This document shows, piece by piece, positions 10,506-47,639 of a stretch of DNA of 64,000 nt (the stretch's first letter is position 1; each line of letters opens with the position of its first letter). This DNA comes from Nothopassalora personata (taxonomy: Eukaryota > Ascomycota > Dothideomycetes > Mycosphaerellales > Mycosphaerellaceae). The DNA is taken from positions 1,736,001-1,800,000 of the forward strand of contig CM066294.1 of the NCBI GenBank assembly GCA_033816765.1, read 5' to 3'. The translations under genes and the position numbers were made by a program. Under the pieces are notes generated by a model, which worked only from the letters and a program-made list of their open reading frames with translations, did no database searches and was not told the origin of the DNA.

Positions 10506-11360
10506 ATGTCTTCTTCTTCTTCTAAAAACCGTCTCCGGCTCGCTAAGGAAATTAACGAACACGGTCGTCTAGTAAATCTCGCGTATAATGTTGCGGTTGG
10601 GCCTTGTCCCTCGTCACGTGGGTGGCCTAGGAAGTGTCGATCCTCGATATGTCTCTAAAGTAGTGTGAACGAGAGTTCACTACAAGGTTGCAACTTAACA
10701 CAAGAGTGTTGATTTGAGTTGAGCACGAGGCTCCTATCTACTCGTAAAGAAGCGTCGTCTATATAGTGCCATGTCTTGGCGTAACTGATCAGACTGAGCA
10801 GACTGATCACTGAGCAGACTGATCACTGAGCAGACTGAGCGAACTGATCACTGAGCTGATCAGTCTGAGCGAAGTCGACCTGCTCAGTTTCGGTCCTTCC
10901 CGAAGAATGAGTGGCTGTGGGTTCTTCCTGAACCGAACCGTAACATATAACTATTGCTTCTTTAACGGTTTATCCTATATCGCTATAGAAGGCAACTTTC
11001 GGCTTCGGTGTTTGGAGTATGTTCGTTGCGGGCGCAAGTGTATAAACCTGTCCTAGGAGTCTCTTAACAAGACCCGGGAGGAGTACCGGAAAAAGGTCGA
11101 AAAGGATAAGGAAGAGCTTACGGAGATCTTAGTACAGTTAATGCGGGATAAGGCAATACTTTACTAAGCGGAGGAGCGCGCGCGTAAGAAGGCGTAGTGT
11201 CTAGAGGCCGAAATAGAGGCCTCTAGAGAGATTAAGGACGTCGATTGTCCTACTACCGATACGACTATTAGTCTCTCTCCTACTATATAGTCCTCGATCG
11301 ACTTCGTTAATAACGCAATCGACTTCTCCGTCCCTTCTAGTTCTACTAGGTAGCCCGTTG
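10506..11360 (+). pseudogene. Fossil antisense Zn2Cys6/coiled-coil gene of element E (left copy)
   Basis: Starts ATG TCT TCT (MSSSSS), the same start as the antisense gene in element A. It is split by the solo LTR at 10589-10945 and carries TAG/TAA stops. Read across the insertion, it keeps Cys and Cys-to-Tyr (TGY-to-TAY) positions in the order C-X2-C-X6-C-X10-C-X2-C-X6-C, then a charged helical region. The right-hand copy (17100-17580, minus) confirms the positions. It runs opposite to E's gag/pol. Confidence 0.65.
10589..10945 (-). mobile_element. Solo LTR, family-B related (357 bp, TSD TATAA)
   Basis: TGTTGCGG...CCGTAACA flanked by TATAA at 10584-10588 and 10946-10950. It shares with family B the core around TATATAG (CGCCAAGACATGGCAC...GTGCTCAACTC, read on the minus strand) but has a different U5, and a 16-bp minisatellite built on ACTGATCACTGAGCAG at about 10785-10870. 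It sits inside the fossil antisense gene. Confidence 0.85.
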
Positions 11361-17080: not shown

Positions 17081-17099
17081 ACACCTATAACGGGCTACC

Positions 17100-20434: not shown

Positions 20435-23400
20435 GTACCCCCCCTCTCAAAACTCGTCTCAGTCCTCTGAGCGTTCAGTCCATTAACTCGCCTATCCATC
20501 GTCTTGTGCGGCCACTTATCACCCTTGCCTGTCGAACTCCATAATCGTGCAAACGTCCAATCGTCTTCAAGGTCGTCCTCCATCTCTGTCACTACTGCTG
20601 CGGCTTGCGCATCAGACTCTGTTTGCTCATACTGCTGGCACGCCCAGGGCCTAAGCCCCTCTTCGGCGAACGCTCGCGTCTGATCCTTTTGACCAAGGTT
20701 GGGTATCAATGCAGGCTCTGCAGGGTTCGCTAGAACATCGGTACAACTGTCTGTTCTGTCGTAGAGCTGAGGGCGGCGGCTTGCACCGTGATCCTCAGTT
20801 GGGACGACGGACTTTCCTGTAACCTGATCATCGTAGCGGTGCGTAGTGAACATGCGCTGACCAGATTCTATCAGAGGCAAGGCTCGGCTAGGCTTATTTG
20901 TGGCGGTGTCTCTGTCGACCCTGATCGTGTTAAGTCCGAGCACCTCATTGACTGGAGACCAGTCAGATGGCGTTGCGAAGCCCTGAGGCGTGGGCAAATC
21001 CGGCCGGCTGTGGTGAAAGTCCGCAAGAGCGGCGGCTGCCCTCACAAACAGGTCCTCTGCAGGTTGCCAAGTCTCTCCGGCCTCCATATCCTGATAGCCA
21101 GTCCATCGCACCTTGTACCAAGTGTCCACCTTGCGCTTCTTTCCCTTCTTCACTTTGCCTGCGCGCTTCCGCGTGTACATGTCCAAGATCTTGTCCACCT
21201 CATATTCTGGTGCCGGGGCTGTGACTGTGACATCGGCGACTGCGTCAGCTGCAGTTGTGTCGGGTTCGATGGCCACTGGCGGCGGCGGTGCCAGGTGCTG
21301 TCCCTCGAGCGGTGGGAGATCGGGGTTGTCGGCTCGCTGTAACAGGGAGGTGTGGAAGCAATTATCGAGTCCGCTCAATGCATCCGACAGGTTCAGCTTG
21401 TATGACAGCCTAGCGGGCATCACCTCCGTGATCTGGTACGGTCCTGCATATCTGCGGTCCAGCTTCTTGGATGGTCGAGTGGTGCGAATGTTCTTCGTGC
21501 TTAGATACACCCAGTCGCCAACCTTGTAGTCTGGTGGGATGCTTCGGTGCCTGTTTGCTGCTTCGGCTTGCAGCGCCTGTGACATCCTCATGTTCTCTTG
21601 AAGATTGCGATGTAGCTCACAGATGCGTTTGGCGAAGGCTTCGGCTGACTTGCTGTCGAGTCGCTGAAGGGTTGTCATGTGTCGGTCCTTGCCTGCTTGC
21701 AAATCGATACGCTCGGTGAACTCTGGGTTATATCCAACATTGGCGTAGAACGGTGACACTCCAGTGGTCTCCGACACTCGGTTGTTAATAGCGAACTGCG
21801 CTAAGCACAGCCAGTCGGCCCAGTCGCTCTGTGCCTCATTCGTGAAGGTGCGTAAGTACTGTTCCATCTCTTGGTTAGTGCGTTCTGATTGCCCATCCGT
21901 TTCAGGGTGGTAGGAGGAACTCAGCTTCCTGCTGATGCGCAGCATCTTGCATAGGCGCTTCCAGAAAGTGGCGATGAACTGCTTTCCGCGATCAGACGTG
22001 ATGGTTTCTGGGAGGCCATGCCGGGTGAACACGTGCTTTAAGAAAAGTCGCGCCGCGTTCTGCGCTGTCATCGCGCCGATGGGTATCAGTTCCACTTCCT
22101 TAGTGAGTCTGTCGGTGACTGTCATAACATTGGTGTAAGTCATGCCGTCGAGTTCGCTTGGTGGCAGGTCAACCACAAAGTCAACTGCGATGTGTTGCCA
22201 AGGTCGTTCTGGCACCGAAAGTGGGTGCAGTAATCCAGGTGGCTGGGTATGCACAGATTTCGTCGTGCGGCACCTGCGGCAATTCGCGTTGTATCTGCGC
22301 ACAGATCTAGCCAAACCAGGCCAGTAGAATTCACGTGCAACGAGCTCGTAGGTGCGGGCTCTGCCTGGGTGACCGGCCGCTGGGGTGTCATGGTTCATCT
22401 TGACTATCCGAGTGCGGAGCTTCTGGTCCTCTGGCACCCATAGACTCCAGTCATTATACTGGTTACGGACGTACAGCAGGTCCCCTTCGACCTTGCAGTG
22501 TACTGGATGCACCTTCGCTTTCTGAAGGAGTGCTGGGGTCTCGCCCTTCTGCAGGGCTCTGATAGCTGACTTCAGGTCTGCATCCGCGGCATAAGCCATT
22601 GTCATTCTGTACTCGAGTTCGGCTTCCTGTTCCGTCTCGGATGCTGTCTGCGTCTGCGTGGACGGTATGAATTCGGTGGCCTCCGGGTTCAGGGCTTCCT
22701 CAATTGGTGCGGTAGGTGTGTTCTCAACAGGTGCAACATCCTCAGCCGCATCTTCGACAGTTGCGCGCATCGAGTCGATCTTAAGAAATCGCTCAGGCGG
22801 CAGCAACGTCTGATGCTGATGCTGATTTCGCGGATCGTCCACCCCCTGCGGAAGGTCCTGGCTGCGTCTCGTGAGGCTGTCAGGCTTTGTGCCTTGGACA
22901 CCTGGTCGATAGACAATACGGAAGTTGAACTGGGACAGGAATTCGGCCCAACGTGCCTGGCGCCGATTCAGCTGCTTAGTGGTCATAAAGTACTCCAAGT
23001 TCTTGTGATCCGTGAACACCTTCACGGGTTCGATGGTGTCATCATCCGCCTCGCAGGCCAACTCCGGGCGCCATTCCTCGAAGGCCTTAATAATCGCTAG
23101 AAGCTCCTTGTCATAAATCTCATAGTTGCATTCCTGCGGGCTCAGCTTCTTTGAATAGAATGCTACAGGGTGAAGCACGCCTTCCTCGTCGTACTGAGAA
23201 AGCACTCCGGCGTTCACGAAATCTGATGAGTCCGTTTCGACTACTGTTTGCCTACCGGGCACATAGTGTGCGAGCATACCGGCTTTGCTGAATGCTGCCT
23301 TCAGAGCGTCAAATGCTGCTTGGCATGCTGGTGTCCAGTCAACCCTGCGATTCTTGTGATTACTAGGTCCATTTGACTTGGTCAATTCGGTCAGCGGCGC

Positions 23401-25161: not shown

Positions 25162-25188
25162 GCTTAGGCAGTGGCCTCGCCATTTCCC
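25153..25188 (-). promoter_or_regulatory. Predicted -1 ribosomal frameshift signal at the gag-pol junction of element C
   Basis: Minus strand: slippery heptamer G GGA AAT (25188-25182) in gag phase, a 7-nt spacer, then a hairpin CCAC-TGCC ... GGCA-(bulge)-GTGG that encloses the gag stop. Slipping back one base reads through into pol without a stop. This matches the X XXY YYZ plus structure rule for -1 frameshifting. Confidence 0.7.
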
Positions 25189-27197
25189 TGCCCGGCGGCC
25201 AGGGAACTGAGGTTGGTGTTGCCTCCGTTGTTGTTACGCGGGCGCGGTGGGCGATAGTCGCCGTCGTAGCCATACATCGGGCACTCGGTATTGCTGGATA
25301 AGTGGGGTCCGGTGCGGCATCGGTAGCACTTGCCCTGCTTCTTCAATTCCTCGCGACCCTCATAGTTGAGCGGTGGGAGGTCCCGAAGGTGAGCTGGCAA
25401 GTCTTCCTTCTTCTTGGTGCCTACGTACTGTGGTGGGCGCTGAACGACGGCGCCGGCAGCACCAGCGGCTGCAGCTGCAGCTGTGTTGCCCTGGTTCTGG
25501 TTGCCGTTGCCGTTGCCGTTCTGGTTGCCTCCTCCATTGCCGCGTGGGCGGTTGTTGTTCTCTTGAGGGTACAGCTGCTCGGTCTCGTAGAACTGCTCGT
25601 CCAGTGCAGTGCACTCTTCGATCACGTCCTGCATGCTGTTCAGACGTCGGTCCACCTCGCGGTCTCCGAAGGTCTTGATGTAGTAGCGCTTGTTGAGGCG
25701 TGTGCGGAACAGCATCAACTCGGTCTCGTCACTCCAGTCAACCCATGCCCTCAGCTTGGAATAGCGTGCGAAGAATGGGACGAAGTTCTCCTTCTGAGCC
25801 TGTTTGCAGGTAGTGATGTCCACTGCAGCCTTGGTGGCCTCGTTGCGGACGCCGTACTGTCGAGTCATCCAGTCCAACAGTTCTTCGCCAGTCATGAACT
25901 CGTTGAAAGCCTGGTGCCCGGGGATGGGGATGCGAGGCTTCACAGTCTTCTGCACCTCACCGTCCGTCCATCCATACAGGAAGCGTAGGGCGTCCTGTTC
26001 AGTGCGGAACGTCGCGACTGTCAACTTCAGCAGGATGCTTGTGTACCAGCTGTCATAAGTCGGGTCGTCATCGTTCTTGAACTTCTTTGGGTCAGGCACA
26101 CCCTTGCCGATCTTCATGCTGCGGTCGAGGGTGGGGTCGATGTTGATGAGACGCTCCGGCAGGTCCACGAGAGGTGTCTGCTGCGTGCGGTTGCTGCGAC
26201 CACCGCCTGACCGCTGCGTGCCTTGTGTGCCTTGGCGCTCATCACGACGTGGTCGGTCATGGTCACGACCACGGCGATCCCTGTCCTTGTCTCCATTGCC
26301 ATCGTCATCATCGTCTCCTCCGCCACCTCCTCCTGCTGCCGCCTCACGGTACCGACGCTGGAGCACCTCGAGTGAGGTCTCGCGGGGTGGTGGTGATCGT
26401 GGGCGTGAGCGTGGGCGCGAGCGCGAACGACGTCCTCGTGCCTGGTCCTCTGCTGCTTGCAGACGGACCTTCAGGTCATCAACCTCAGCTTGTAATGCCT
26501 GGCTCTTCTTCTTCTCCGAGTCGGTGATATCGGCGAACTGCTGACATAGCTCGTTCGCATCCTTGTACTTCTTCTCGACAGCCTTGAGTTTGAGGGTGTC
26601 GGCGTTCTTATTCTTAAGGTCCTGGGCCATCTTCGCGAGGGCGGTCTGTTCGGTCTTGAGCATCCCGTGGATGCGATCGTACTCGGCATACAGCGTACGG
26701 TACTGCTTGTTCTGAAGTGCATTGGCGCGTTGCATCACATCGAGTTGTTGGCTAGATATGATGGCAGTGTTGAATCCTCGTAGCACGAAATCGTGGACGG
26801 TCTTCGGGTGTTCCTTGGTCATTGTGGCCAGGTCTTCGGCGGTGATGTTCTGGAAGTCGGCGGCAGCGATGTGTTCGGCTTCGTCGTGTGAAATGAAGAC
26901 TGGTGTGTCCTCCTCTTCTCCCACCCTGGGCTCGAAGAGTTCTGTGAAATCAAGCTCACCGTTCTGCTCCCTGTCTTGTGCTTTGTTCCATGCCTTGTCC
27001 AGCTCTTGCTGAAGCGCGACACCGGTGTCAACTGTGACTCGCCGAGTGTCGTCTCCTTGTGTCTGACTGTCGAAACTGGAGAGGTCGGGGAAAAGAGAGG
27101 TGCGCTTGCCTTGTGTCTGTGACTGCTGGGAAGTCATGTTGTTTCCTTCAACGCGGCCTGTTGCTGAGGCCTTTGGTGCGTTGGTTTCCTTGGGCAT
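25164..27197 (-). CDS. gag: Element C gag
   Basis: 677 residues from the ATG at 27195-27197. The N-terminal half is acidic with a coiled-coil region (~150-245), followed by an SR-like basic stretch (SRSRPRSRPRSPPP, ~255-272), a Gly/Asp-rich linker, the capsid-like retrotransposon gag domain (~340-520), an Asn/Gly-rich linker and a zinc knuckle near 622 with spacing C-X2-C-X4-H-X6-C, one or two residues longer than the usual CCHC. TAA at 25164-25166 ends the frame 2 nt before pol's first potential start. Confidence 0.9.
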   Translation of the reverse strand: MPKETNAPKASATGRVEGNNMTSQQSQTQGKRTSLFPDLSSFDSQTQGDDTRRVTVDTGVALQQELDKAWNKAQDREQNGELDFTELFEPRVGEEEDTPVFISHDEAEHIAAADFQNITAEDLATMTKEHPKTVHDFVLRGFNTAIISSQQLDVMQRANALQNKQYRTLYAEYDRIHGMLKTEQTALAKMAQDLKNKNADTLKLKAVEKKYKDANELCQQFADITDSEKKKSQALQAEVDDLKVRLQAAEDQARGRRSRSRPRSRPRSPPPRETSLEVLQRRYREAAAGGGGGGDDDDDGNGDKDRDRRGRDHDRPRRDERQGTQGTQRSGGGRSNRTQQTPLVDLPERLINIDPTLDRSMKIGKGVPDPKKFKNDDDPTYDSWYTSILLKLTVATFRTEQDALRFLYGWTDGEVQKTVKPRIPIPGHQAFNEFMTGEELLDWMTRQYGVRNEATKAAVDITTCKQAQKENFVPFFARYSKLRAWVDWSDETELMLFRTRLNKRYYIKTFGDREVDRRLNSMQDVIEECTALDEQFYETEQLYPQENNNRPRGNGGGNQNGNGNGNQNQGNTAAAAAAGAAGAVVQRPPQYVGTKKKEDLPAHLRDLPPLNYEGREELKKQGKCYRCRTGPHLSSNTECPMYGYDGDYRPPRPRNNNGGNTNLSSLAAGQGNGEATA

Positions 27198-27355
27198 CTG
27201 TTGCTTAGTGCCTTACCGTGTTCCGTGTTCTGAATCCGTTTGCCTCTGTTGCGATGTTGCGAGTCGCGAGTTCTGTATCTACGCCGTGCGCGGTTCTGTG
27301 AGTCTGTTCCTGTTGTTACGCGTCCCTTACCTGGATCCGCGATCTGGGTAGGGAG

Positions 27356-27364
27356 GTAGAACAA
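27356..27364 (-). promoter_or_regulatory. Element C primer-binding site (self-priming type)
   Basis: TTGTTCTAC (minus) begins 2 nt after the 5' LTR and is complementary to GTAGAACAA inside the LTR (27408-27416). It does not start TGG as tRNA-primed sites do. Confidence 0.6.
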
Positions 27365-27366
27365 AC

Positions 27367-27550
27367 TGTAAGGACGCGCGTACCATAGGGTCCGAATGAG
27401 ATAGTTGTTGTTCTACGAAGCTACGAAAGAGGAGCGCGAGGCGCGGCGGATAGATAAAGCATCGCCAAGCCGCGCTAACCCGATGCGGAAGGTCCGAGGT
27501 TCCGCCGGGACGACGCATCGTCAGTGAAGGGTCGCGGGCTGCCCGTGACA
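27367..27550 (-). repeat. 5' LTR of element C
   Basis: 184 bp; minus-strand sense TGTCACGGG...CCTTACA. The partner LTR is 20251-20434. Confidence 0.92.
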
Positions 27551-28018: not shown

Positions 28019-28023
28019 ACTTC

Positions 28024-28094
28024 TGTTACGGTATGACAACACCGCAAAGGAAAACATCCTGGCACGGGTCACGTGCAAAAGATGTATGCGCGAC
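28024..28094 (+). repeat. Tandem 71-bp duplication of the 5' LTR start of element A
   Basis: Bases 28024-28094 repeat the first 71 bp of the LTR starting at 28095. The TSD flanks the extra copy, so the duplication was inside the element when or after it inserted. The 3' LTR lacks it. Confidence 0.9.
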
Positions 28095-28507
28095 TGTTAC
28101 GGTATGACAACACCGCAAAGGAAAACATCCTGGCACGGGTCACGTGCAAAAGATGTATGCGCGACGTCCGCGACGCCTGACTGGGGACGACTCGTCGCGC
28201 ATAGCGCGAAAGACGTACCCGCGACATGAGCGACGTCCGCGACGGTAGCGACGAGCGCACTTGTCGCAGAAGGCGCACATGGCGCGAAAGGACAGCCAAG
28301 ACTGGCAAATCTCCTTTGTATTTAGGAACGCTGAGAATCCCTTATGGCTTCGACTGCGTTCAACTCATGTTACGATCTCACTGATTGGAATACACTCTTA
28401 CTCCAATTATTCATCTTCGCTCAGTTTGCTTTAGCCTCTCCAAAGAATACCGCCACGTGACTTGACTTATCTCTCTTTTGAGATTAGCCCTGGAACGAGA
28501 CATAACA
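28095..28507 (+). repeat. 5' LTR of element A (413 bp)
   Basis: TGTTACGG...ACATAACA. U3 holds many CGCGAC/GTCGCG motifs (about 28160-28275). A TATA-like TGTATTTAG (28316-28325) lies ~35 nt before GCGTTCAA (28356-28363), which pairs with TTGAACGC at 28510-28517 just past the LTR, the putative self-primer. Confidence 0.93.
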
Positions 28508-28524
28508 CTTTGAACGCCCTCAGG

Positions 28525-30531
28525 ATGAGCGCTACTCAAGCAGCTGGTAGGGGAACACCCGCCCCCAGCGAAGCAGGAAGCATCCGCCGTGCGCCACCAC
28601 GACAGACCACCGCGAAGGACGATGAGTCTGATGACGATGACGAGCCTACTCCAAGGAAGAACGACGTTAAGGCTGCTAAGCCGGACCTCTTCCATGGAGA
28701 TAGGACCAAGTTCGACGACTGGGTCAACCAGATGGACATGTACCTCATGTTCAACCCAGTCGACACCGACAAAAGAACTATCTTCGCCATCACGTTCCTT
28801 CGCGGAAGTGCGCAGAACTGGATCAAACCTTACCTCAAGGAATACCTCGACGGTATGGGACGATTAGACCCCACCGGAATGTTCAGGAACTACACCCTTT
28901 TCAAAGACAAGATGAAGTCAATCTTTGGAACCTCGAACGAAGTCCAACAGGCCATACGAATCATTCAACACCTGAAGCAGAAGACGTCTACTTCAGAGTA
29001 CGCCGCCAAATTCGAAGAATACGGACAGATCACCGGATGGGACCAGACGGCGTTGATGACTATGTTCCGACGTGGACTCAAGGACTCCGTCAAGGACGAG
29101 TTGATGAGACACGGAGGAGCGATCACCAACCTCGAAGGACTGATGAAGGCGTCGATCGACATCGACGATCAGCTCTGGGAACGGTACCAGGAAAAGAAAT
29201 ACGACTCCAAGGTAGGAGGCATGGCAGGATACGCTCCAGATCGCAAACCCTCAGGGGGGTACGTTGCGAGGGGAGGATTCTCACGACAAAGCCAGCCCTA
29301 CTATGGACCACAGCCAATGGAACTGGACGCTACCCAACGAGGACGGAAGATCGATAAGAGTAGGGGCCACGGAAAGCCCTTCAAAGGAAAAGGAAAACTC
29401 ACATGCTACGCCTGTGGCAAAGAAGGCCACATGGCGCGGGATTGCCGCGGTAAAAATATGGTGCGCCGCGAGCAGTTCAATATGATGCAACCAAAGGTGG
29501 ACAAATCTGGGAGCAGTGTTGGACCCCGACAATTCAACTATACCCAGAGAGTGGAGGAGAAGGATAGCAACCGGGTTGCGACGCCTCTCCTGGACCCCTC
29601 ACAAGGACGAGGAGGACACCATGTTCAACAACATACACCACCACCGAATGACCAACAATCAGAGATCGACATCAAGATCAGATTGTTTGGCATGATGGCA
29701 CGAGGAGTCAACCATGAAGTCGAGAAAGAGTCTCGACATGGTCACGGAAGCCTTCATTGGCGTTTCTGTTACCAGGACTCGTGTCAAACCCACTACGACG
29801 CCAAAGCAGGCGCAGGGTACTGGCCACAACAGCCAGCAGGAACCCTGGGAGCACAACATGGACGAAACAAGCTCCAGGAAGTGGATGTAGACGAATCTTA
29901 CTTCGACGACGACAAAGAAAACCAGGATCCAGAATGGAACGGACGCTGGTCACCAGCTCCCGAACAACAAACGAACAAGCTGGACACTATTGAAGAAGAT
30001 TACGTACCGGAAGAGTCAAGCGAGGACTCATCCGAAGAAGAAGAGAGCGACACCGACGACGAAAACGAAGTATGCACGTTCACGGTGGACGCGCCAAGAA
30101 AGCTCTATGAGTTAATCATCTACCTCCAACGAAGGCATGAAGAATTCCTACCAAAGTTCTCAGGGAAACGATACCTAAACCCCAGCGAGTTCGACAAGAC
30201 ACTCGACACGATGAGGGGCATGGTGTGGGGCTACCCAACCATGAACGACACTGAGAACTTGGCTAAAGCGGTTGTCGAACGACCACCCATAGGAAGCCGG
30301 ATGACAGGTACCGGATACCTAACACCAGCAGGAACTTTCGTCTCAAACGAACTACGAACAGCAGTACAGCATGTACAGGCTCTCTACTCAGAATCGCAGA
30401 AGATCCAGGAACGCAACAGACTACAAGTGTGGACACAGGGCAACGGGCTACAGGTTCTAGCCGAAGCCTCTAGGCACGAAGCACAGCGAACCACATACCA
30501 TTCGGGAAAAGGATCAGCTCCCCAGGAATGA
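28525..30531 (+). CDS. gag: Element A gag with a long acidic C-terminal extension
   Basis: 668 residues from the ATG at 28525, the first ATG after the LTR. A retrotransposon-gag capsid domain spans ~50-230 (for example LFHGDRTKFDDWVNQMDMYL) and a canonical CCHC knuckle, CYACGKEGHMARDC, lies at 294-307. Some 360 more residues follow, which is unusual: the tail is acidic (DESYFDDDKEN, SSEEEESDTDDE) and shows a YELIIYLQRRHEEFLP segment. The same tail can be recognised in fossil E, so it is an old feature. The TGA stop overlaps the pol ATG (ATGA, 30528-30531). Confidence 0.92.
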   Translation: MSATQAAGRGTPAPSEAGSIRRAPPRQTTAKDDESDDDDEPTPRKNDVKAAKPDLFHGDRTKFDDWVNQMDMYLMFNPVDTDKRTIFAITFLRGSAQNWIKPYLKEYLDGMGRLDPTGMFRNYTLFKDKMKSIFGTSNEVQQAIRIIQHLKQKTSTSEYAAKFEEYGQITGWDQTALMTMFRRGLKDSVKDELMRHGGAITNLEGLMKASIDIDDQLWERYQEKKYDSKVGGMAGYAPDRKPSGGYVARGGFSRQSQPYYGPQPMELDATQRGRKIDKSRGHGKPFKGKGKLTCYACGKEGHMARDCRGKNMVRREQFNMMQPKVDKSGSSVGPRQFNYTQRVEEKDSNRVATPLLDPSQGRGGHHVQQHTPPPNDQQSEIDIKIRLFGMMARGVNHEVEKESRHGHGSLHWRFCYQDSCQTHYDAKAGAGYWPQQPAGTLGAQHGRNKLQEVDVDESYFDDDKENQDPEWNGRWSPAPEQQTNKLDTIEEDYVPEESSEDSSEEEESDTDDENEVCTFTVDAPRKLYELIIYLQRRHEEFLPKFSGKRYLNPSEFDKTLDTMRGMVWGYPTMNDTENLAKAVVERPPIGSRMTGTGYLTPAGTFVSNELRTAVQHVQALYSESQKIQERNRLQVWTQGNGLQVLAEASRHEAQRTTYHSGKGSAPQE

Positions 30532-33500
30532 GCGACCAAAGGGAGTTATGCAACACTCAGGCTCACGCATCGACACCAAACACAGTTTTCCAGATACAAG
30601 CAATCGTCAACGGACACAGGACCAGTGTCATGATCGACTCCGGAGCAGCGGGGAACTTTATTTCCGAGTCTTTCACAACAAGAAACGGGCTAGCTACCCT
30701 GAAGAAGAAATGGGGTTACGAATTGATCGCGGTAGACGGATCATCGTTACCTAGCGTGGAATGGGAGACGACACCATTGCCACTGGCTATCCAACAGCAC
30801 CACGAGAACATTACCTTGGATGTCACTGATATGGCCAGTCATGACATAGTATTAGGTATGCCTTGGTTGAGAAAGCACAATCCAGTTATCGACTGGAGGA
30901 GAAGAGTACTCACATTTAGGCAATGCAACTGCGTTATAGGCATTGAACCTACGCATCGACAGCGGACGATGGTAGATGAGGCAAGGAAACAGCTCAACGC
31001 ATTCGAGCTTGCGCCGAACAGAAGGAATCAAGAACCACCTTCGACCGGGATAGATACTGGCGTGGGGCCGCCGGATCACGAAATCACTGGAACGGATGGA
31101 AGTAACGCACCATCGAAGGATGCTGGTATATCGGAACCAAGCATTCCCAAGGAGTACCTTAAGTGGAAAAGGCTCTTTGAAGAGGAAAAGGGTAGAGACG
31201 CCTTACCTAGACACCAACCATGGGACCACAAGATAAACATTCAGCCAGGGAAGGAGCCTCCATGGGGACCCCTATATCAAATGTCCGAGAAAGAGCTCAA
31301 AACCCTACGAGAATGGCTGAAGGAGAAACTCGACAAAGGATGGATAAGAAGATCCACCTCAAGTGCGGGAACTCCATGTATGTTTGTTCCAAAACAAAAC
31401 GGGAAACTACGACTCGTACAAGACTACCGAAAATTGAACGAGATCACGATAAAGAACCGATATCCATTACCGAACATCGAAGAAGCACAGGACCGACTCA
31501 CCGGATCCGACTGGTACACAAAGATCGATCTACGAGACGCCTTCTACGCCATCCGGATGGCGGAAGGAGAGGAATGGAAAACCGCATTCAGAACACGATA
31601 CGGACTCTACGAATTCTTGGTCATGCCAATGGGACTGACCAACGCACCCGCATCCTGTCAAGACCTAGTCAATGAGACGCTGAGAGAACTTCTTGACGTG
31701 TGCGTCATTGCCTATATGGACGACATCCTCGTCTACACCAAAGGATCACTGCAGAACCACATTAGACAAGTCCAGGACGTCTTCGAGCGCCTCACAAGGG
31801 TAGGGTTCAAGACGGCACCAGAAAAATGCGAGTTCCACAAGAAACAAGTTAAATTCCTCGGATTCATCATAAGCACAACAGGAATCCAGATCGACCCGAC
31901 AAAGACACAGTCTATCGAAGAATGGCCGACGCCAGCCAACGTTAAGGACGTACAATCGTTCCTTGGACTCGCAAACTATAACCGCAAGTTCATCAAGGAC
32001 TACTCCAAAACGGCTGCAGCCATGACTGCACTCACTAGGAAAGACACCAAGTGGACCTGGGGCAACAAAGAACGACAAGCTTTCGAAACACTCAAAAGAC
32101 AGTGCGCCTCAGCACCAACACTTCGACTATTCGACGGAACAAAGGAAGTCCAAATCGAAACGGACGCATCGGACATGGCCATAGGCGCATGCCTTACACA
32201 AGAACACGATGGGAAAAGACACCCAGTGGCCTATTACTCAAGAAAAATGACACCCGCGGAACAAAACTACGACATCCATGATAAGGAACTTCTCGCTATT
32301 GTCGCTGCAATGCAGCACTGGAGAGTATATGCGGAAGGAGCACCTAAGCTGACGATTCTTTCTGATCACAAGAATCTCACTTACTTCACTACAACGAAAG
32401 TACTGACCCGAAGACAGGCCCGCTGGTCGGAATTGCTCGGACAGTACAAGTTTGAAATCCGCTATACCGCAGGAAAAGACAACGGCAGGGCCGACGCACT
32501 GAGCCGAAGAAGCGACTACATGGAAGGAAAGGAACCAGTGCGACAACAAGTACTTAAGACTAATCCAGATGGAAGTCTAAGCGCCAACACAAAGGAGTTC
32601 AACAACATAGTGCGCGTTCTTCAGGACACAGAAGAACAGTTCCCACTAGCACAAGGAAGATACCAAGTACCGAAAGGACGAGAAGAGGAATGCATACGAC
32701 AACATCACGACAACCCGATGTACGGACATCCTGGAACCACAAAGACTCTCGAGATCATACAACGCAGCTTCTCATTCCCACAAATGAGACAAAAGGTATT
32801 GAACTACATTAAGCAATGTGTTCACTGTCAACAAAATAAGGCTGCACGACACGAGAAGTATGGACAAATACAGTTCAGGACACCACCGACACAACCATGG
32901 GACGAGGTCACGATGGACTTCATTACGAAACTTCCCATATCCACGGACAAGGCGACAGGCACGGAATACGACATGATACTGGTCATGGTCGATCGCCTAA
33001 CGAAATATGCACACTTTATACCTGCCTGCGAGACATACACGGCAGAGCAACTCGGTTATCTCGTTCTCGACAAGCTAGTACGATACCACGGATTCCCAAA
33101 GGTCTTTATCACAGACCGAGACAAGCTGTTTACATCCAACTACTGGAAGACTCTTGTAGCGGAAATTGGTATACAACACAAACTGTCTACGGCATATCAC
33201 CCACAAACGGACGGACAAACTGAGAGAGCAAATCAAACCTTGGAACAATACCTACGACACTACGTCAACTACGCACAAGACAACTGGGTATCACTCCTAC
33301 CCATGGCACAACTTGCACTGAACAATCACAAATCAGAAACAACAGGCGAAACACCTTTCTTCGCAAATTTCGGAAGACACCCTACGCTGTTCGGTGACAA
33401 GAGAGATCACCCACAAGCGGAAAGGGCTATCGCCACAACGGAAGACCTAAGAGAGGTACACAAATCCGTCAATAAACGAATTCGGGACTCGCAGCAACGA

Positions 33501-33947
33501 CTCACTGAATCTCGTCGAAAACAACAAATGGCACCTCAGCTAAAGAGGGGGGATAAAGTCTACCTTCTTACAAAAAACCTCAAGACACGAAGGAAGACCA
33601 AGAAACTGGATCATGTGAAAGTCGGGCCATTTCTCGTTGAAGAATCACGAGGACCAGTCAACTACCGACTACGACTACCAAAAGATGCCAAAATCCATCC
33701 AGTGTTCCACATCTCCGTGCTGGAACCAGCAGACCCCAAAACGCCATGCCAGGAAACATTCCACTACCAACCAGAAGAGGAAACTGAATTCGAAGTCGAA
33801 AAAATCCTGGACAAGAGAGGTCAGCGATACCTTGTCAAGTGGAAAGGATACGACAACTCAGAAAATACCTGGGAACCGAAAAAACACCTACGAAACTGTC
33901 AACAGAAAATCAAGGATTACGAGAGAAGGAAGAGACCTACCACCTAA
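30528..33947 (+). CDS. pol: Element A pol polyprotein (PR-RT-RNaseH-IN-chromodomain)
   Basis: 1,139 residues with its own ATG overlapping the gag stop. Protease D37-S-G; RT with YMDD at ~396; RNase H with ETDASD (~546) and HDKELLAI; integrase with an HH-CC finger (HHDN.., CVHCQQNK, ~725-770), DDE residues in TMDFITKL (~796), TDRDKLF (~862) and TDGQTERAN (~899); a C-terminal chromodomain, FEVEKILDKRGQRYLVKWKG, from ~1088. Chromodomains steer integration to marked heterochromatin, which fits its place inside older repeats. All key residues are intact. Its TAA overlaps the stop of the antisense gene. Confidence 0.95.
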   Translation: MSDQRELCNTQAHASTPNTVFQIQAIVNGHRTSVMIDSGAAGNFISESFTTRNGLATLKKKWGYELIAVDGSSLPSVEWETTPLPLAIQQHHENITLDVTDMASHDIVLGMPWLRKHNPVIDWRRRVLTFRQCNCVIGIEPTHRQRTMVDEARKQLNAFELAPNRRNQEPPSTGIDTGVGPPDHEITGTDGSNAPSKDAGISEPSIPKEYLKWKRLFEEEKGRDALPRHQPWDHKINIQPGKEPPWGPLYQMSEKELKTLREWLKEKLDKGWIRRSTSSAGTPCMFVPKQNGKLRLVQDYRKLNEITIKNRYPLPNIEEAQDRLTGSDWYTKIDLRDAFYAIRMAEGEEWKTAFRTRYGLYEFLVMPMGLTNAPASCQDLVNETLRELLDVCVIAYMDDILVYTKGSLQNHIRQVQDVFERLTRVGFKTAPEKCEFHKKQVKFLGFIISTTGIQIDPTKTQSIEEWPTPANVKDVQSFLGLANYNRKFIKDYSKTAAAMTALTRKDTKWTWGNKERQAFETLKRQCASAPTLRLFDGTKEVQIETDASDMAIGACLTQEHDGKRHPVAYYSRKMTPAEQNYDIHDKELLAIVAAMQHWRVYAEGAPKLTILSDHKNLTYFTTTKVLTRRQARWSELLGQYKFEIRYTAGKDNGRADALSRRSDYMEGKEPVRQQVLKTNPDGSLSANTKEFNNIVRVLQDTEEQFPLAQGRYQVPKGREEECIRQHHDNPMYGHPGTTKTLEIIQRSFSFPQMRQKVLNYIKQCVHCQQNKAARHEKYGQIQFRTPPTQPWDEVTMDFITKLPISTDKATGTEYDMILVMVDRLTKYAHFIPACETYTAEQLGYLVLDKLVRYHGFPKVFITDRDKLFTSNYWKTLVAEIGIQHKLSTAYHPQTDGQTERANQTLEQYLRHYVNYAQDNWVSLLPMAQLALNNHKSETTGETPFFANFGRHPTLFGDKRDHPQAERAIATTEDLREVHKSVNKRIRDSQQRLTESRRKQQMAPQLKRGDKVYLLTKNLKTRRKTKKLDHVKVGPFLVEESRGPVNYRLRLPKDAKIHPVFHISVLEPADPKTPCQETFHYQPEEETEFEVEKILDKRGQRYLVKWKGYDNSENTWEPKKHLRNCQQKIKDYERRKRPTT

Positions 33948-34585
33948 CCAACATTCGGAGGCTCAACGGGGCCAGCACTCCACTCGGGGAACTGGACACC
34001 AGTTATAAGACCCCAAGTGGAGGGGGAAACCTGTTCCCCAAAAACGCTGCCAAACTCGGAGAAGTCTACGAGCACCTCGCTACCGGCCGAGGCCGCGGGG
34101 GCCTCAGACTCTCCTTCCAGACGCTCCATCTCCTCCGCGGTGGACAAAGCCCTCTTGAAGGAATTGTCCTCCGTTGATTCCGCGGCACGAAGCTGTTTTC
34201 GCAGCCGGCGGGCCTTCGCACGGGCAGCTGCCACCTTCTGCTGAGCCGCTGCTATCACCCTCTCGGCCTCTTCTTCTGCTTCGGACAGAGCGTCCTCCGC
34301 CTCTTCCGCACTCCTGGACAGCGACTCCCGGATCTTGGCCATCTTCTCGAACTCCTGAAGAGTGACCCGGAGATCACACTTCTTGTGAGCGTCGTTGCAC
34401 GCCTTGCAACGACCGGACCGAGCGTCGACACGACACTCCTGGCCCTGGCGACGACACCGACTGCACGAGACGGGCATAATGGATTGGAACCGGCGAGAAC
34501 GAGAAAGGGCGTTAATGGTTTCCGCGTAGATACCAGAAGAAGACGAAGGGCGAAGAGGCATCGTGAGCCATGATGACGAAGACAT
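33944..34585 (-). CDS. Antisense accessory gene of element A: Zn2Cys6-like cluster plus coiled coil
   Basis: 213 residues, ATG at 34583-34585 (the longer frame starts with GTG). After a Ser/Arg-rich leader the cysteines C41, C44, C51, C60, C63, C70 have spacing X2-X6-X8-X2-X6, exactly that of the fungal binuclear zinc cluster, though the usual Lys/Arg residues before the third Cys are QE. A Glu/Ala/Arg-rich coiled coil follows (~75-150), then an acidic, aromatic tail. It reads against gag and pol, starts ~65 bp inside the 3' LTR boundary, and its stop overlaps pol's stop by 3 bp. Relatives occur in family B and fossil E. A DNA- or RNA-binding regulatory role is inference; antisense accessory ORFs are known in some plant LTR elements, but I know of no such zinc-cluster gene. 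Confidence 0.75.
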   Translation of the reverse strand: MSSSSWLTMPLRPSSSSGIYAETINALSRSRRFQSIMPVSCSRCRRQGQECRVDARSGRCKACNDAHKKCDLRVTLQEFEKMAKIRESLSRSAEEAEDALSEAEEEAERVIAAAQQKVAAARAKARRLRKQLRAAESTEDNSFKRALSTAEEMERLEGESEAPAASAGSEVLVDFSEFGSVFGEQVSPSTWGLITGVQFPEWSAGPVEPPNVG

Positions 34586-34636
34586 GGTGGGGAAAGCGAT
34601 CACAACTATAAAAGGTAGCTCGGGACGAGCTAGGCT

Positions 34637-34649
34637 AAGAGGGGGATGG
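34637..34649 (+). promoter_or_regulatory. Polypurine tract of element A
   Basis: AAGAGGGGGATGG abuts the 3' LTR and would prime plus-strand DNA synthesis. The corresponding tract in family B ends identically (GGGGGATGG). Confidence 0.85.
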
Positions 34650-35062
34650 TGTTACGGTATGACAACACCGCAAAGGAAAACATCCTGGCACGGGTCACGT
34701 GCAAAAGATGTATGCGCGACGTCCGCGACGCCTGACTGGGGACGACTCGTCGCGCATAGCGCGAAAGACGTACCCGCGACATGAGCGACGTCCGCGACGG
34801 TAGCGACGAGCGCACTTGTCGCAGAAGGCGCACATGGCGCGAAAGGACAGCCAAGACTGGCAAATCTCCTTTGTATTTAGGAACGCTGAGAATCCCTTAT
34901 GGCTTCGACTGCGTTCAACTCATGTTACGATCTCACTGATTGGAATACACTCTTACTCCAATTATTCATCTTCGCTCAGTTTGCTTTAGCCTCTCCAAAG
35001 AATACCGCCACGTGACTTGACTTATCTCTCTTTTGAGATTAGCCCTGGAACGAGACATAACA
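34650..35062 (+). repeat. 3' LTR of element A
   Basis: 413 bp, identical by eye to 28095-28507. Confidence 0.93.
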
Positions 35063-35067
35063 ACTTC

Positions 35068-43048: not shown

Positions 43049-43365
43049 TGTTAGGAACCGCTGTACGTTATCCCAACTGGGCTTGGATCTTTGCAGTGAT
43101 GTCTCTGACTCGTTGAGAAGGTAGTGGTCCCAAACAGTATATGGTGTATACTTGAAATGAGTTGAGCACGAAGCTCCTATCTACTTGCAAAAGAGCGTCG
43201 TCTATATAGTGCCATGTCTTGGCGTGGTCTCGCGAGATCTGTCCTGCTCTGCGGATCTGTTCGACAGATCCCACAGATCCCTCAGATCCCTTGGTCACGT
43301 GTTCTGATCCTTGCCTTGCTGCCTGGATGATTGGTTGTCCCCTCTCTGCGAACTAAACCGTAACA
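43049..43365 (-). repeat. Family B LTR, copy 1 (3' LTR)
   Basis: 317 bp. Minus-sense TGTTACGGTTTAG...GGTTCCTAACA, preceded by purine tract CTAAAAGGGGGATGG (43366-43380). Confidence 0.92.
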
Positions 43366-43441
43366 CCATCCCCCTTTTAGCCTTAGCTTCGCCCCGAAGC
43401 TTACAAAGGAAAGTCCTCCCCACCTCTCTTTCAGACCAGAG

Positions 43442-44164
43442 ATGTCGTCTCTTTTCCCCGTCAACATTCCAGCGTCTGACGCCGTCCCCACCAAGAAACG
43501 AAAACGACGTGCAAATCGAATCCACCGTCTCGGCGAAGAAACCATGTGTCCCTGTTCTCGCTGCAAGGAGAAGGGTCTCTTGTGTCGCGTACACATCTCG
43601 TCGGGCAAGTGCTCCCACTGCCACCTAAGTAACTGTCGCAGCTGCGACGCCAAAGTGACTGAGGTTGAGTGGAAGAAGCTTGGTGACCAACGAAGGAAGC
43701 TGCTCTCGGACCTTGACCGAGCGAAGGAAGCGCTCGCGGAAGCCGGCCGCCTGCGTGCTGCCGCTTTCGAGAAGGAGATGGAGGCGCATGCGAAAGAGAT
43801 GCGTCTTCGCAAGCAACTGGATGCCGTGGACCGAAAGGTCGAGGAAGGTCGCTCTCTCGAGGAGCGTGAAATGGAGGAGGAGGAGGAAGAAGAGCGCGCC
43901 CTCGAGCGAGCCGGCCTTCTCCTCGCTCCAGACCCTTCCGACGGTCCCATGCTCAGTCCCTTTACCTGGAGTAACTGGGAGGGAAACGCAAACTCCGAGT
44001 TCTGGAACTTCCTGGATGTTCCGGTGTCTAATCCAGTGGGAAACTCGTCGTTCGTCCCCTGTCTATCCCGTTTTGCCGTTCGTAGTGTTGACTTCTGTGT
44101 CCTAGGCCATCAAATCAAGAAGCCGCTGTTTGATGCCTTGCTGTCCTCAGGTTGTTTCTGCTAG
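43442..44164 (+). CDS. Antisense Zn2Cys6-like/coiled-coil gene of family B, unit 1
   Basis: 240 residues. Basic NLS-like KKRKRR at 18-23; cysteines C38, C41, C48, C57, C60, C68 give X2-X6-X8-X2-X7 spacing, with extra Cys at 36 and 65. A long charged coiled coil (~74-165) ends in a poly-Glu run (EEEEEEE), followed by an acidic-aromatic tail with FTWSNWEG and EFWNFLD. The layout matches the element A protein although sequence identity is modest. It runs opposite to gag and the two stops overlap. It is kept intact while pol is lost, which suggests it matters to the element. Confidence 0.75.
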   Translation: MSSLFPVNIPASDAVPTKKRKRRANRIHRLGEETMCPCSRCKEKGLLCRVHISSGKCSHCHLSNCRSCDAKVTEVEWKKLGDQRRKLLSDLDRAKEALAEAGRLRAAAFEKEMEAHAKEMRLRKQLDAVDRKVEEGRSLEEREMEEEEEEERALERAGLLLAPDPSDGPMLSPFTWSNWEGNANSEFWNFLDVPVSNPVGNSSFVPCLSRFAVRSVDFCVLGHQIKKPLFDALLSSGCFC

Positions 44165-45153
44165 GCAGATTTCGAGAAGAAGTTCTCGCATTCCTGGCAT
44201 GTATTCTCTTCGCGAATCATTGCGTTGAACTCGCGGCTAACCATGTTCTTTTTCTTGCAGTTCTTTGCAAAATGGCCTTGCTCGCCACATACGTAGCAGG
44301 TGGAACCTTTGCTCTTCAGCCCCCTTCCTGTCCTACGTTCCGTTACGTCCAATTCCATTGGGTCTCCGTAACCATTAGGGTCCTGACTTCTGGCCTTGAA
44401 GCCCCCTCTTCCGCCCGCGGCGGGTCTCTGGTATCCAGGCTGTACGTGTCGGTCGTACCTCAACTCCTGGAGCCTTTCGTCGATCTCCTTTGCTGCCTTG
44501 ATCATCGCCCCTAGCGTAACGACGCTGGCGTTTCGGGATAGTTCGGCTTTGACGTTGTCTTTCAGCCCGAGGTAGAACTGCGATCGCAAAGCTGCGTCGT
44601 TCCATTCCAGGTCGGCGGCATATCCTTGGAATTCTGAGGCGTACAGCGCTACAGAAGTAGTCTGTCGAAGTTGTCGGATATGTCGGTCGGCGTATACCTC
44701 CTCATTTGGTATCCCGTATAGATCATCGAGTTTCGTCTCAAACTCGTCGTAGTCGTGGAAAATTTTTCGAGTTTCCGTTTTCGGTGTTTCTCCCTCGCCC
44801 TGGTTGTGTAGCCAGTCCTTGAGGTATGGTCGGAATCCTCTAGCTGCTTTTCCTCGTAGGAAGGATGCGGCGTACAAGACCTTGCTGGCCTCGCCTTGAA
44901 ACTGGTGTGCGTTGAAGTGAAGGTACAACTGAACCTGCAGTTGAAAAGCCTCCAGTTTGTCCTTGGTCCCGTCGAACGTCTCCGGCGTAGACACCTTAGG
45001 TGCACGGTGGTGGTCCAATGGGTTCAGCATACCCATAGGAGTGTTGTTGTTCTTGCTGCTTCCTGTAATCGACATTTCGCTCATTCGTTCCGTGATGCCA
45101 GTTGACTGTGGCTGTTGTCGTGACGGACTCCGGGTAGCGTCTCTCCCAGACAT
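44161..45153 (-). CDS. gag: Family B gag, unit 1
   Basis: 330 residues from the ATG at 45151-45153 (the longer frame starts TTG). Contains a capsid-type retrotransposon gag domain (~65-230) and a CCHC zinc knuckle, CYVCGEQGHFAKNC, near 283-296. It is much shorter than gag of A and lacks its acidic tail. No protease, RT or integrase follows, so reverse transcription must be supplied by another element. Confidence 0.9.
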   Translation of the reverse strand: MSGRDATRSPSRQQPQSTGITERMSEMSITGSSKNNNTPMGMLNPLDHHRAPKVSTPETFDGTKDKLEAFQLQVQLYLHFNAHQFQGEASKVLYAASFLRGKAARGFRPYLKDWLHNQGEGETPKTETRKIFHDYDEFETKLDDLYGIPNEEVYADRHIRQLRQTTSVALYASEFQGYAADLEWNDAALRSQFYLGLKDNVKAELSRNASVVTLGAMIKAAKEIDERLQELRYDRHVQPGYQRPAAGGRGGFKARSQDPNGYGDPMELDVTERRTGRGLKSKGSTCYVCGEQGHFAKNCKKKNMVSREFNAMIREENTCQECENFFSKSA

Positions 45154-45185
45154 ATGCAAAGGGCCCTGGTGGTGGTGCTCAAAGT

Positions 45186-45502
45186 TGTTAGGAACCGCTG
45201 TACGTTATCCCAACTGGGCTTGGATCTTTGCAGTGATGTCTCTGACTCGTTGAGAAGGTAGTGGTCCCAAACAGTATATGGTGTATACTTGAAATGAGTT
45301 GAGCACGAAGCTCCTATCTACTTGCAAAAGAGCGTCGTCTATATAGTGCCATGTCTTGGCGTGGTCTCGCGAGATCTGTCCTGCTCTGCGGATCTGTTCG
45401 ACAGATCCCACAGATCCCTCAGATCCCTTGGTCACGTGTTCTGATCCTTGCCTTGCTGCCTGGATGATTGGTTGTCCCCTCTCTGCGAACTAAACCGTAA
45501 CA
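45186..45502 (-). repeat. Family B LTR, copy 2 (shared by both units)
   Basis: 317 bp, identical by eye to copies 1 and 3. Confidence 0.92.
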
Positions 45503-45578
45503 CCATCCCCCTTTTAGCCTTAGCTTCGCCCCGAAGCTTACAAAGGAAAGTCCTCCCCACCTCTCTTTCAGACCAGAG

Positions 45579-46301
45579 ATGTCGTCTCTTTTCCCCGTCA
45601 ACATTCCAGCGTCTGACGCCGTCCCCACCAAGAAACGAAAACGACGTGCAAATCGAATCCACCGTCTCGGCGAAGAAACCATGTGTCCCTGTTCTCGCTG
45701 CAAGGAGAAGGGTCTCTTGTGTCGCGTACACATCTCGTCGGGCAAGTGCTCCCACTGCCACCTAAGTAACTGTCGCAGCTGCGACGCCAAAGTGACTGAG
45801 GTTGAGTGGAAGAAGCTTGGTGACCAACGAAGGAAGCTGCTCTCGGACCTTGACCGAGCGAAGGAAGCGCTCGCGGAAGCCGGCCGCCTGCGTGCTGCCG
45901 CTTTCGAGAAGGAGATGGAGGCGCATGCGAAAGAGATGCGTCTTCGCAAGCAACTGGATGCCGTGGACCGAAAGGTCGAGGAAGGTCGCTCTCTCGAGGA
46001 GCGTGAAATGGAGGAGGAGGAGGAAGAAGAGCGCGCCCTCGAGCGAGCCGGCCTTCTCCTCGCTCCAGACCCTTCCGACGGTCCCATGCTCAGTCCCTTT
46101 ACCTGGAGTAACTGGGAGGGAAACGCAAACTCCGAGTTCTGGAACTTCCTGGATGTTCCGGTGTCTAATCCAGTGGGAAACTCGTCGTTCGTCCCCTGTC
46201 TATCCCGTTTTGCCGTTCGTAGTGTTGACTTCTGTGTCCTAGGCCATCAAATCAAGAAGCCGCTGTTTGATGCCTTGCTGTCCTCAGGTTGTTTCTGCTA
46301 G
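45579..46301 (+). CDS. Antisense Zn2Cys6-like/coiled-coil gene of family B, unit 2
   Basis: Exact protein copy of the gene at 43442-44164. Confidence 0.75.
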   Translation: MSSLFPVNIPASDAVPTKKRKRRANRIHRLGEETMCPCSRCKEKGLLCRVHISSGKCSHCHLSNCRSCDAKVTEVEWKKLGDQRRKLLSDLDRAKEALAEAGRLRAAAFEKEMEAHAKEMRLRKQLDAVDRKVEEGRSLEEREMEEEEEEERALERAGLLLAPDPSDGPMLSPFTWSNWEGNANSEFWNFLDVPVSNPVGNSSFVPCLSRFAVRSVDFCVLGHQIKKPLFDALLSSGCFC

Positions 46302-47290
46302 GCAGATTTCGAGAAGAAGTTCTCGCATTCCTGGCATGTATTCTCTTCGCGAATCATTGCGTTGAACTCGCGGCTAACCATGTTCTTTTTCTTGCAGTTC
46401 TTTGCAAAATGGCCTTGCTCGCCACATACGTAGCAGGTGGAACCTTTGCTCTTCAGCCCCCTTCCTGTCCTACGTTCCGTTACGTCCAATTCCATTGGGT
46501 CTCCGTAACCATTAGGGTCCTGACTTCTGGCCTTGAAGCCCCCTCTTCCGCCCGCGGCGGGTCTCTGGTATCCAGGCTGTACGTGTCGGTCGTACCTCAA
46601 CTCCTGGAGCCTTTCGTCGATCTCCTTTGCTGCCTTGATCATCGCCCCTAGCGTAACGACGCTGGCGTTTCGGGATAGTTCGGCTTTGACGTTGTCTTTC
46701 AGCCCGAGGTAGAACTGCGATCGCAAAGCTGCGTCGTTCCATTCCAGGTCGGCGGCATATCCTTGGAATTCTGAGGCGTACAGCGCTACAGAAGTAGTCT
46801 GTCGAAGTTGTCGGATATGTCGGTCGGCGTATACCTCCTCATTTGGTATCCCGTATAGATCATCGAGTTTCGTCTCAAACTCGTCGTAGTCGTGGAAAAT
46901 TTTTCGAGTTTCCGTTTTCGGTGTTTCTCCCTCGCCCTGGTTGTGTAGCCAGTCCTTGAGGTATGGTCGGAATCCTCTAGCTGCTTTTCCTCGTAGGAAG
47001 GATGCGGCGTACAAGACCTTGCTGGCCTCGCCTTGAAACTGGTGTGCGTTGAAGTGAAGGTACAACTGAACCTGCAGTTGAAAAGCCTCCAGTTTGTCCT
47101 TGGTCCCGTCGAACGTCTCCGGCGTAGACACCTTAGGTGCACGGTGGTGGTCCAATGGGTTCAGCATACCCATAGGAGTGTTGTTGTTCTTGCTGCTTCC
47201 TGTAATCGACATTTCGCTCATTCGTTCCGTGATGCCAGTTGACTGTGGCTGTTGTCGTGACGGACTCCGGGTAGCGTCTCTCCCAGACAT
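46298..47290 (-). CDS. gag: Family B gag, unit 2
   Basis: Exact protein copy of the gag at 44161-45153. Confidence 0.9.
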   Translation of the reverse strand: MSGRDATRSPSRQQPQSTGITERMSEMSITGSSKNNNTPMGMLNPLDHHRAPKVSTPETFDGTKDKLEAFQLQVQLYLHFNAHQFQGEASKVLYAASFLRGKAARGFRPYLKDWLHNQGEGETPKTETRKIFHDYDEFETKLDDLYGIPNEEVYADRHIRQLRQTTSVALYASEFQGYAADLEWNDAALRSQFYLGLKDNVKAELSRNASVVTLGAMIKAAKEIDERLQELRYDRHVQPGYQRPAAGGRGGFKARSQDPNGYGDPMELDVTERRTGRGLKSKGSTCYVCGEQGHFAKNCKKKNMVSREFNAMIREENTCQECENFFSKSA

Positions 47291-47322
47291 ATGCAAAGGG
47301 CCCTGGTGGTGGTGCTCAAAGT

Positions 47323-47639
47323 TGTTAGGAACCGCTGTACGTTATCCCAACTGGGCTTGGATCTTTGCAGTGATGTCTCTGACTCGTTGAGAAGGTAGTG
47401 GTCCCAAACAGTATATGGTGTATACTTGAAATGAGTTGAGCACGAAGCTCCTATCTACTTGCAAAAGAGCGTCGTCTATATAGTGCCATGTCTTGGCGTG
47501 GTCTCGCGAGATCTGTCCTGCTCTGCGGATCTGTTCGACAGATCCCACAGATCCCTCAGATCCCTTGGTCACGTGTTCTGATCCTTGCCTTGCTGCCTGG
47601 ATGATTGGTTGTCCCCTCTCTGCGAACTAAACCGTAACA
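47323..47639 (-). repeat. Family B LTR, copy 3 (5' LTR)
   Basis: 317 bp with TATATAG and GTGCTCAA (47436-47443 on the complement). The latter pairs with TTGAGCAC (47312-47319, minus) 3 nt past the LTR. Confidence 0.92.

Follow-up and report, generated by a model that had tools for sequence, protein, structure and literature searches.

Retroelement-encoded activators of their own LTR are known from foamy viruses (Tas/Bel1) and lentiviruses (Tat); both are in the sense orientation, and the proteins are unrelated to the antisense protein considered here. Antisense genes located between pol and the 3′ LTR are also known; one of them is brtn, which is carried by Boty-like elements in Botrytis (PMC7264820, PMC8365987, PMC4227169). 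In the accessible parts of these sources, brtn is presented as an extra gene antisense to gag-pol in a fungal gypsy element of Botrytis/Sclerotinia (PMC7264820, citing Zhao et al. 2011). Plants have antisense ORFs in the stretch from pol to the 3′ LTR as well, namely Grande gene23, RIRE2, and Retand (TRP28), and the same plant review calls it unknown what antisense genes do in LTR elements (PMC7264820). In Arabidopsis, the VANDAL DNA transposons encode VANC proteins, regulators specific to their family that target short motifs within rapidly changing tandem repeats (PMC5735166).

The gene that we describe here resembles brtn, compared by description only, in being antisense to gag-pol in a fungal gypsy element, whereas the available descriptions of brtn include no six-Cys cluster, U3 co-movement, or pol-less persistence. 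No match in our homologue listings was named brtn, and most matches were unnamed. The plant ORFs share the slot and the orientation, some of their elements are non-autonomous, and DNA binding is predicted for Retand TRP28 (PMC7264820). They differ in protein domain and in the location of repeats, which are internal there and in U3 here, and the accessible text on plant elements does not describe cassettes being exchanged while the gag backbone stays constant (PMC7264820). The literature consulted, with few subscription papers and including the accessible parts of PMC5987419 and PMC11963269, did not describe a Zn2Cys6-like antisense protein, joint U3 change, or pol-less retention. The original prediction, made from this DNA alone, had proposed an undescribed system; given the known antisense genes, that proposal has to be narrowed. 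The slot is known, and what appears to be new is the pattern, in which a regulator-like gene and its putative U3 target would form an exchangeable cassette.

The window analyzed is a stretch of 64,000 nucleotides (G000:C8:1736001-1800000) from a genome of 54.5 Mb. The element carrying the gene is organized as follows.

28024-35062, gag/pol on + strand: gypsy element F1, target-site duplication ACTTC
28024..28094, + strand: partial LTR-start copy, 71 bp, preceding the full 5′ LTR
28095..28507, + strand: 5′ LTR, 413 of 413 bases equal to the 3′ LTR
28525..30531, + strand: gag, with Retrotrans_gag and a zinc knuckle
30528..33947, + strand: pol, with protease, RT, RNase H, integrase, and chromodomain
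33944..34585, − strand: antisense gene, type A, family F1, 213 aa (P0001), supported by translation, dN/dS of related families, alignments, and a model
34637..34649, + strand: polypurine tract (PPT) AAGAGGGGGATGG
34650..34868, + strand: U3 of the 3′ LTR, with a repeated CGCGACG/CGTCGCG motif; proposed shared regulatory region and putative target
34869..35062, + strand: R-U5 of the 3′ LTR, its start placed at the TATA-like CTTTGTATTTAGGA

As predicted, the complement of 33944-34585 translates into 213 aa without a stop, opposite gag and pol and ahead of the PPT and of the 3′ LTR at 34650. Its TAG (complement of 33944-33946) overlaps the TAA of pol (33945-33947), and the U3, said to be rich in CGCGAC/GTCGCG, contains CGCGACG/CGTCGCG four times. 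Because the duplication ACTTC flanks the element at 28019-28023 and 35063-35067, the insertion edge was set before the 71-bp partial LTR copy. Positions 28024-28094 match the LTR start exactly over 71 bp, a comparable partial copy occurs at the 3′ LTR in 7 of the 13 fetched F1 loci, and short duplications also open the LTRs of families F2 and F12; priming at the PPT may account for such copies. Purine tracts closely similar to that of F1 lie ahead of the 3′ LTR in the other families. A hairpin, TAGCTCGTCCCGAGCTA, lies at 34616-34632, between the start of the antisense gene and the PPT, and F3 has AGCTTCGCCCCGAAGCT at the equivalent place. Just downstream of F1, an F5-type LTR start with a U3 array and a TATA begins at 35468 and is probably a solo LTR. 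The bacterial promoter/terminator scan run on the window is ill-suited to a fungus.

The length of the antisense ORF is no evidence for a gene, since 43 ORFs in the window reach 150 aa or more. Its relatives are more telling. A genome search (150 scored of 375 candidates) returned at least 14 stop-free rows at 100% identity, counting the window copy, and two at 99%. In 20 of 20 fetched loci, a homologous antisense ORF lies opposite gag or the gag-pol unit, and 19 of these loci have a pair of 3′ and 5′ LTRs (F8 is the exception under the filter used), with pair identities of 100% in 17, 99.7% in F10, and 95.7% in F15. The ORF of F15 is truncated, with most of the cluster missing. In the autonomous family F17 (L028:7091-7690), the fetched copy has C-X5-C for C-X2-C and an unusual N-terminus, perhaps through decay or alteration of this copy. 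Alignments show the same six Cys in diverged families; in an alignment of 47 proteins, taken from the window and from public databases (P0001, P0002, and 45 of 49 database homologues; another alignment comprised 36 sequences), conservation reaches at least 90% at all six Cys and at a C-terminal Trp. The 49 homologues are mostly unnamed, those named by organism being from Paraphaeosphaeria minitans and Cladosporium inversicolor, the latter record matched over 10% of the query only.

Substitutions between related families are concentrated at codon position 3, with dN/dS of 0.04 for F5/F7 (50 of 59 differences at that position) and 0.08 for F6/F10 (72 of 100), compared with 0.05-0.24 for reference gag pairs; in more distant antisense-gene pairs, synonymous sites are near or at saturation. 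Because of these ratios, which are not near 1, and of the conservation among families, we reject a chance ORF, in agreement with the original prediction. Neither a ratio near 1 nor a lack of homologous antisense ORFs in related elements, two outcomes named beforehand as refuting the prediction, was seen. The antisense ORF is a real coding gene under purifying selection, and one that is conserved and probably important. The same figures weigh against the idea that what counts is chiefly the antisense transcript, through dsRNA or antisense control of the sense RNA, and less the protein. The gene does overlap the genomic RNA in antisense, and such roles are discussed for plant elements in the accessible part of PMC7264820, yet dN/dS of 0.04-0.08 and a nearly invariant Cys pattern require a protein, which makes this explanation very improbable. 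Among 150 scored of 768 candidates, 14 places of equal score hold a decayed F16-like antisense gene (4 TAG, 3 TAA), on contigs C20, C21, C30, C31, C33, C34, C39, and C40 and at the start of C9; they are probably one relic within a repeated unit, which is perhaps subtelomeric.

P0001 has a six-Cys cluster at residues 41-70, a predicted helix at 76-160, and an acidic C-terminus. The Zn2Cys6 consensus spacing is C-X2-C-X6-C-X5-12-C-X2-C-X6-8-C, and the cluster of P0001, with Cys at 41, 44, 51, 60, 63, and 70, fits it with the spacing originally reported, X2-X6-X8-X2-X6. In the Zn2Cys6 fold, two Cys-helix motifs are related by a pseudo-twofold symmetry, and the six Cys bind two zinc ions. The C2-C3 loop has 13 residues in F5, F6, F7, F10, F13, and F16, which is outside the consensus, as is the C-X5-C of F17. 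An AlphaFold model (pLDDT 82) predicts a Zn2Cys6-like fold, an 85-residue helix, and an acidic tail, and its long helix at 76-160 agrees with the coiled coil said to follow the cluster. In a Foldseek search of this model against the PDB at E ≤ 10, 9 of 9 matches were Zn2Cys6 (Gal4-class) domains, but weak ones (best E 0.3), and a second model gave worse matches. A viral structure library yielded two uninformative matches (E 5.2 and 7.4).

Searches by sequence gave a different picture. The Zn2Cys6 profile search suggested with the original prediction reached Zn_clus only under the Pfam cut-off, in 4 of 23 proteins scanned (E 0.089 to 1), with a best E of 0.72 in 2 of 21 members and no listed match for P0001 itself. 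Two proteins of a second type of antisense gene, type B, matched at E 0.089 and 0.74 (13.4 and 10.4 bits against 21). None of the 27 PDB sequence matches at E ≤ 10 (best E 0.037) was named as a Zn2Cys6 protein, and many were long-helix/coiled-coil proteins. The term Gal4-type is therefore unsupported by sequence, Zn_clus being matched only under its cut-off, and what stands is a Zn2Cys6-like layout. The antisense protein has in common with Gal4-class factors the six-Cys spacing, a long predicted helix after the cluster, an acidic tail, and possibly the fold; it differs in falling below Zn_clus cut-offs and in being encoded by a retrotransposon. CGG-binding Zn2Cys6 factors have a basic C2-C3 loop, which the antisense protein lacks. 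Assignment to a known Pfam family was rejected as well: DUF5651 matched 9 of 21 members, with a best E of 5.7e-5 and, for P0001, a match under the cut-off of that family, and there were coiled-coil matches to CENP-H (6 of 21 members) and others. Among IMG/VR contigs, 15 pattern matches were found and 0 relatives confirmed.

The gene is not confined to complete elements. Open frames for both gag and pol occur in four fetched families (F1, F4, F12, and F17); the remaining fetched loci are pol-less, with gag and the antisense gene only, in about 2.3-2.6 kb from LTR to LTR, and here the antisense slot lies between gag and the 3′ LTR rather than between pol and the PPT as in F1. A search with the 330-aa gag scored 121 of 1042 candidates, all 98-100% identical. 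A listed antisense gene lies on the expected side in 119 of these 121 copies (63 type A, 56 type B), in a join made by position, with strands not used, on part of the rows (150 scored of 375, of 768, of 723, and of 207 candidates, with 125 listed from the last) and with pol-bearing families and most stop-containing copies left out. The two scored gag copies with no listed neighbour are at C7:937812 and C4:100182. The antisense gene is retained in pol-less elements.

Type B was discovered through two gag copies that had no type-A neighbour. Its two proteins have six Cys spaced X2-X6-X10-X2-X6 and an acidic tail, coiled-coil models match a segment with much Glu, Arg, and Leu, and one relative occurs outside the genome. 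At G000:C12:1356314-1367583, six gag copies with an exact spacing of 2056 bp accompany six type-B antisense genes, perhaps a tandem array with shared LTRs as in the F3 array of the window. The window has the following further carriers.

43049..47639, − strand: pol-less family F3, tandem array (LTR-gag-antisense gene-LTR-gag-antisense gene-LTR), period 2137, target-site duplication ATATA
43442..44164, + strand: antisense gene of F3, copy 1, 240 aa, same class as the F1 gene
44161..45153, − strand: gag of F3, copy 1, 330 aa
45579..46301, + strand: antisense gene of F3, copy 2
46298-47290, − strand: gag of F3, copy 2
10949..11326, + strand: type-B antisense gene relic (G000:C8:1746949-1747326), E 5.1e-5, 22% identity

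The gene class had been predicted in two other families of the window. One further family is intact, in the two tandem copies of F3; to this is added the relic of the second type, B, interrupted by 3 TAG and 1 TAA. This relic sits within one arm of a nested large inverted repeat (10263-17824, arms up to 1648 nt, 94% complementary). A second chromodomain gypsy element, at 20251-27550 on the − strand, has LTRs of about 190 bp and a pol frame that extends some 200 codons beyond the chromodomain; a search for an antisense relative within it found none at E below 0.4.

Across ten pol-less families, amino acid identity is 95-100% for gag and 27-100% for the antisense proteins, most pairs of which are at 27-46%; the autonomous pair F4/F17 has 98% identity in gag, 38% in the antisense protein, and 73% in the LTR. 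Compared with F3 in 60-base bins, eight other families (not counting a ninth, F2, which is almost a copy of F3) are 85-100% identical in gag bins to base 1320, 8-60% in antisense-gene bins (1441-2100), 65-88% in the PPT bin, 28-62% in U3 bins, and 92-100% and 83-100% in two R-U5 bins at the 3′ end, F10 being the exception with 60% in the last. The antisense gene and the adjacent U3 thus differ together, while gag is near-constant and R-U5 mostly so. In 40 of 40 fetched copies (103 of 150 scored rows were listed and 40 obtained; 6 of the 40 are sources of reference sequences), each antisense type is paired with its own U3 type. The U3 is also exchangeable in part, since F7 and F5 have antisense genes 97% identical and different U3 starts.

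Joint exchange and complete pairing can follow from linkage in young copies, because the gene adjoins the U3. Protein and U3 divergence are correlated (r 0.43, p 0.001); the value falls to 0.14 (p 0.17) once F7 and F10 are removed and to -0.07 (p 0.61) when F16 is removed too, with the same loss for the cluster alone (Mantel test, 12 families, F17 left out). The correlation depends on the close pairs F5/F7/F16 and F6/F10, and a clean protein-to-motif correlation is not robust. These results would suit an accessory protein of the particle or of integration (a Gag partner or a factor in nuclear import or target choice), with U3 co-variation reflecting physical linkage only. Such a protein could also be kept in elements that otherwise encode gag only, and the basic stretches at the N-terminus of the antisense proteins, together with the coiled coil, are in line with it. 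However, a near-constant gag beside an antisense protein that diverges, or is of type B, is odd for a Gag partner, and the U3 repeat arrays would be left unexplained; we regard this explanation as unlikely.

The U3s carry short repeated motifs, often in arrays of 8-9 bp. In 13 type-A families (F2 was left out as a near-copy of F3), repeated 7-mers in U3 score above all 300 shuffles in 11, and the score is reached by 2 of 300 shuffles in F14 and 15 of 300 in F16. R-U5 has no such excess, with at least 33 of 300 shuffles reaching the score in 13 of 13 families (33 of 300, in F12, being the best). In a same-length gag control, 8 of 13 families stand at 7-23 of 300 shuffles, and these families are not independent, because their gags are nearly one sequence. 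A lag of 8-9 bp is reached by at most 5 of 500 shuffles in 9 of 13 families; F14 and F16 have no clear period, and the best lags are 18 in F3 and 5 in F12. Among type-B loci, L069 contains GACGAGCA 21 times, and L070 is without a comparable array. Sites of the form TG[AC]TC number 101 in 2240 bases of U3, 9 in 2301 of R-U5, 77 in 16185 of gag, and 34 in 7950 of antisense gene, which gives a density of 45.1 per kb for U3 and of 3.9-4.8 per kb for the other three regions; they are absent from F1 and F13. In eight F5 copies, the U3 sites vary from 10 to 18, and the antisense gene is 99.8-100% identical over 490 bases compared. A dyad (inverted-repeat) signal was discarded because it is not specific to U3, with 19 in U3 against 5.5 expected but also 12 in R-U5 against 3.6. 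As a post hoc lead only, VD follows the third Cys in families with GTCG-type U3s (F1, F13) and other residues in those with TG[AC]TC-type U3s.

Motif and antisense protein are not one-to-one. ACTGATC is common to F4 and F10, although the identity of their proteins is 26%, and F5, F7, F8, and F17 all have TGCTCTC frequently. The recurrence of these two motifs in families with unlike antisense proteins would be expected if host factors bound the U3 arrays and the antisense protein acted elsewhere, on host genes or chromatin. That arrangement seems quite unlikely, as the U3 changes along with the antisense gene while gag hardly varies.

The reading that we favor, with moderate confidence, is that the elements encode a regulator of their own U3 and that regulator and target are exchanged together, as a cassette. 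Under this model, the antisense gene would encode a small DNA-binding regulator, in which we infer a Zn2Cys6-like cluster that binds zinc and DNA, a long coiled coil for dimerization, and an acidic tail. The gene would be expressed leftwards from the U3 of the 3′ LTR as its promoter, and the protein would act back on its own element family by binding the short sites that recur in the U3. The original prediction had the element carry its own regulator acting on the LTR: the link to the U3 is supported, and an action on the U3 is likely, judging from sequence features. Gene and target would move as one unit, set by recombination on a common gag/R-U5 backbone. Pol-less elements would keep the cassette because their own LTR must be switched on while pol is presumably borrowed elsewhere.

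The most likely effect of the regulator would be to raise or protect LTR transcription, as a transactivator or anti-silencer. The structural and U3 evidence would serve equally for a repressor of its own family acting through the same sites, for copy-number control or superinfection immunity, and an immunity system would need family-specific targets. The C-terminus, however, resembles an activation domain: by composition, scored with no control, the last 50 aa have 0-2 basic residues in 12 of 13 families and 8-13 W/F/Y/L/M in 13 of 13, with F3 (3 acidic and 4 basic residues) as the exception. Activation may thus be preferred on C-terminal composition only. Moreover, it is hard to see why pol-less elements that gain from transcription would retain a repressor in as many as 119 of 121 scored copies, and we think a repressor improbable.

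A self-regulating cassette would have a counterpart in VANC, which is likewise element-encoded and family-specific and acts on short motifs in fast-changing repeats; the varying site number in the F5 U3 resembles VANC target repeats (PMC5735166). VANDALs differ in being DNA transposons, with the domains DUF1985 and DUF287, and in that VANC binding and methylation loss are experimental, whereas here the U3 repeat structure is what is seen (PMC5735166). More tentatively, fungal LTR retrotransposons may possess an exchangeable specificity cassette, consisting of an antisense Zn2Cys6-like regulator and a cognate array-forming U3 shuffled onto shared gag backbones, in which types A and B have a like layout and pol-less parasites gain private transcription control.

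This genome offers a natural experiment, with one gag backbone and many antisense gene-U3 pairs of differing sequence; therefore, cognate recognition is directly testable by crossing proteins with U3 reporters in yeast. If the model is true, LTR retrotransposons would be evolving private transcription factors whose targets change fast, a parallel to VANC among the DNA transposons of plants, and the antisense genes would represent a family of new DNA-binding specificities.
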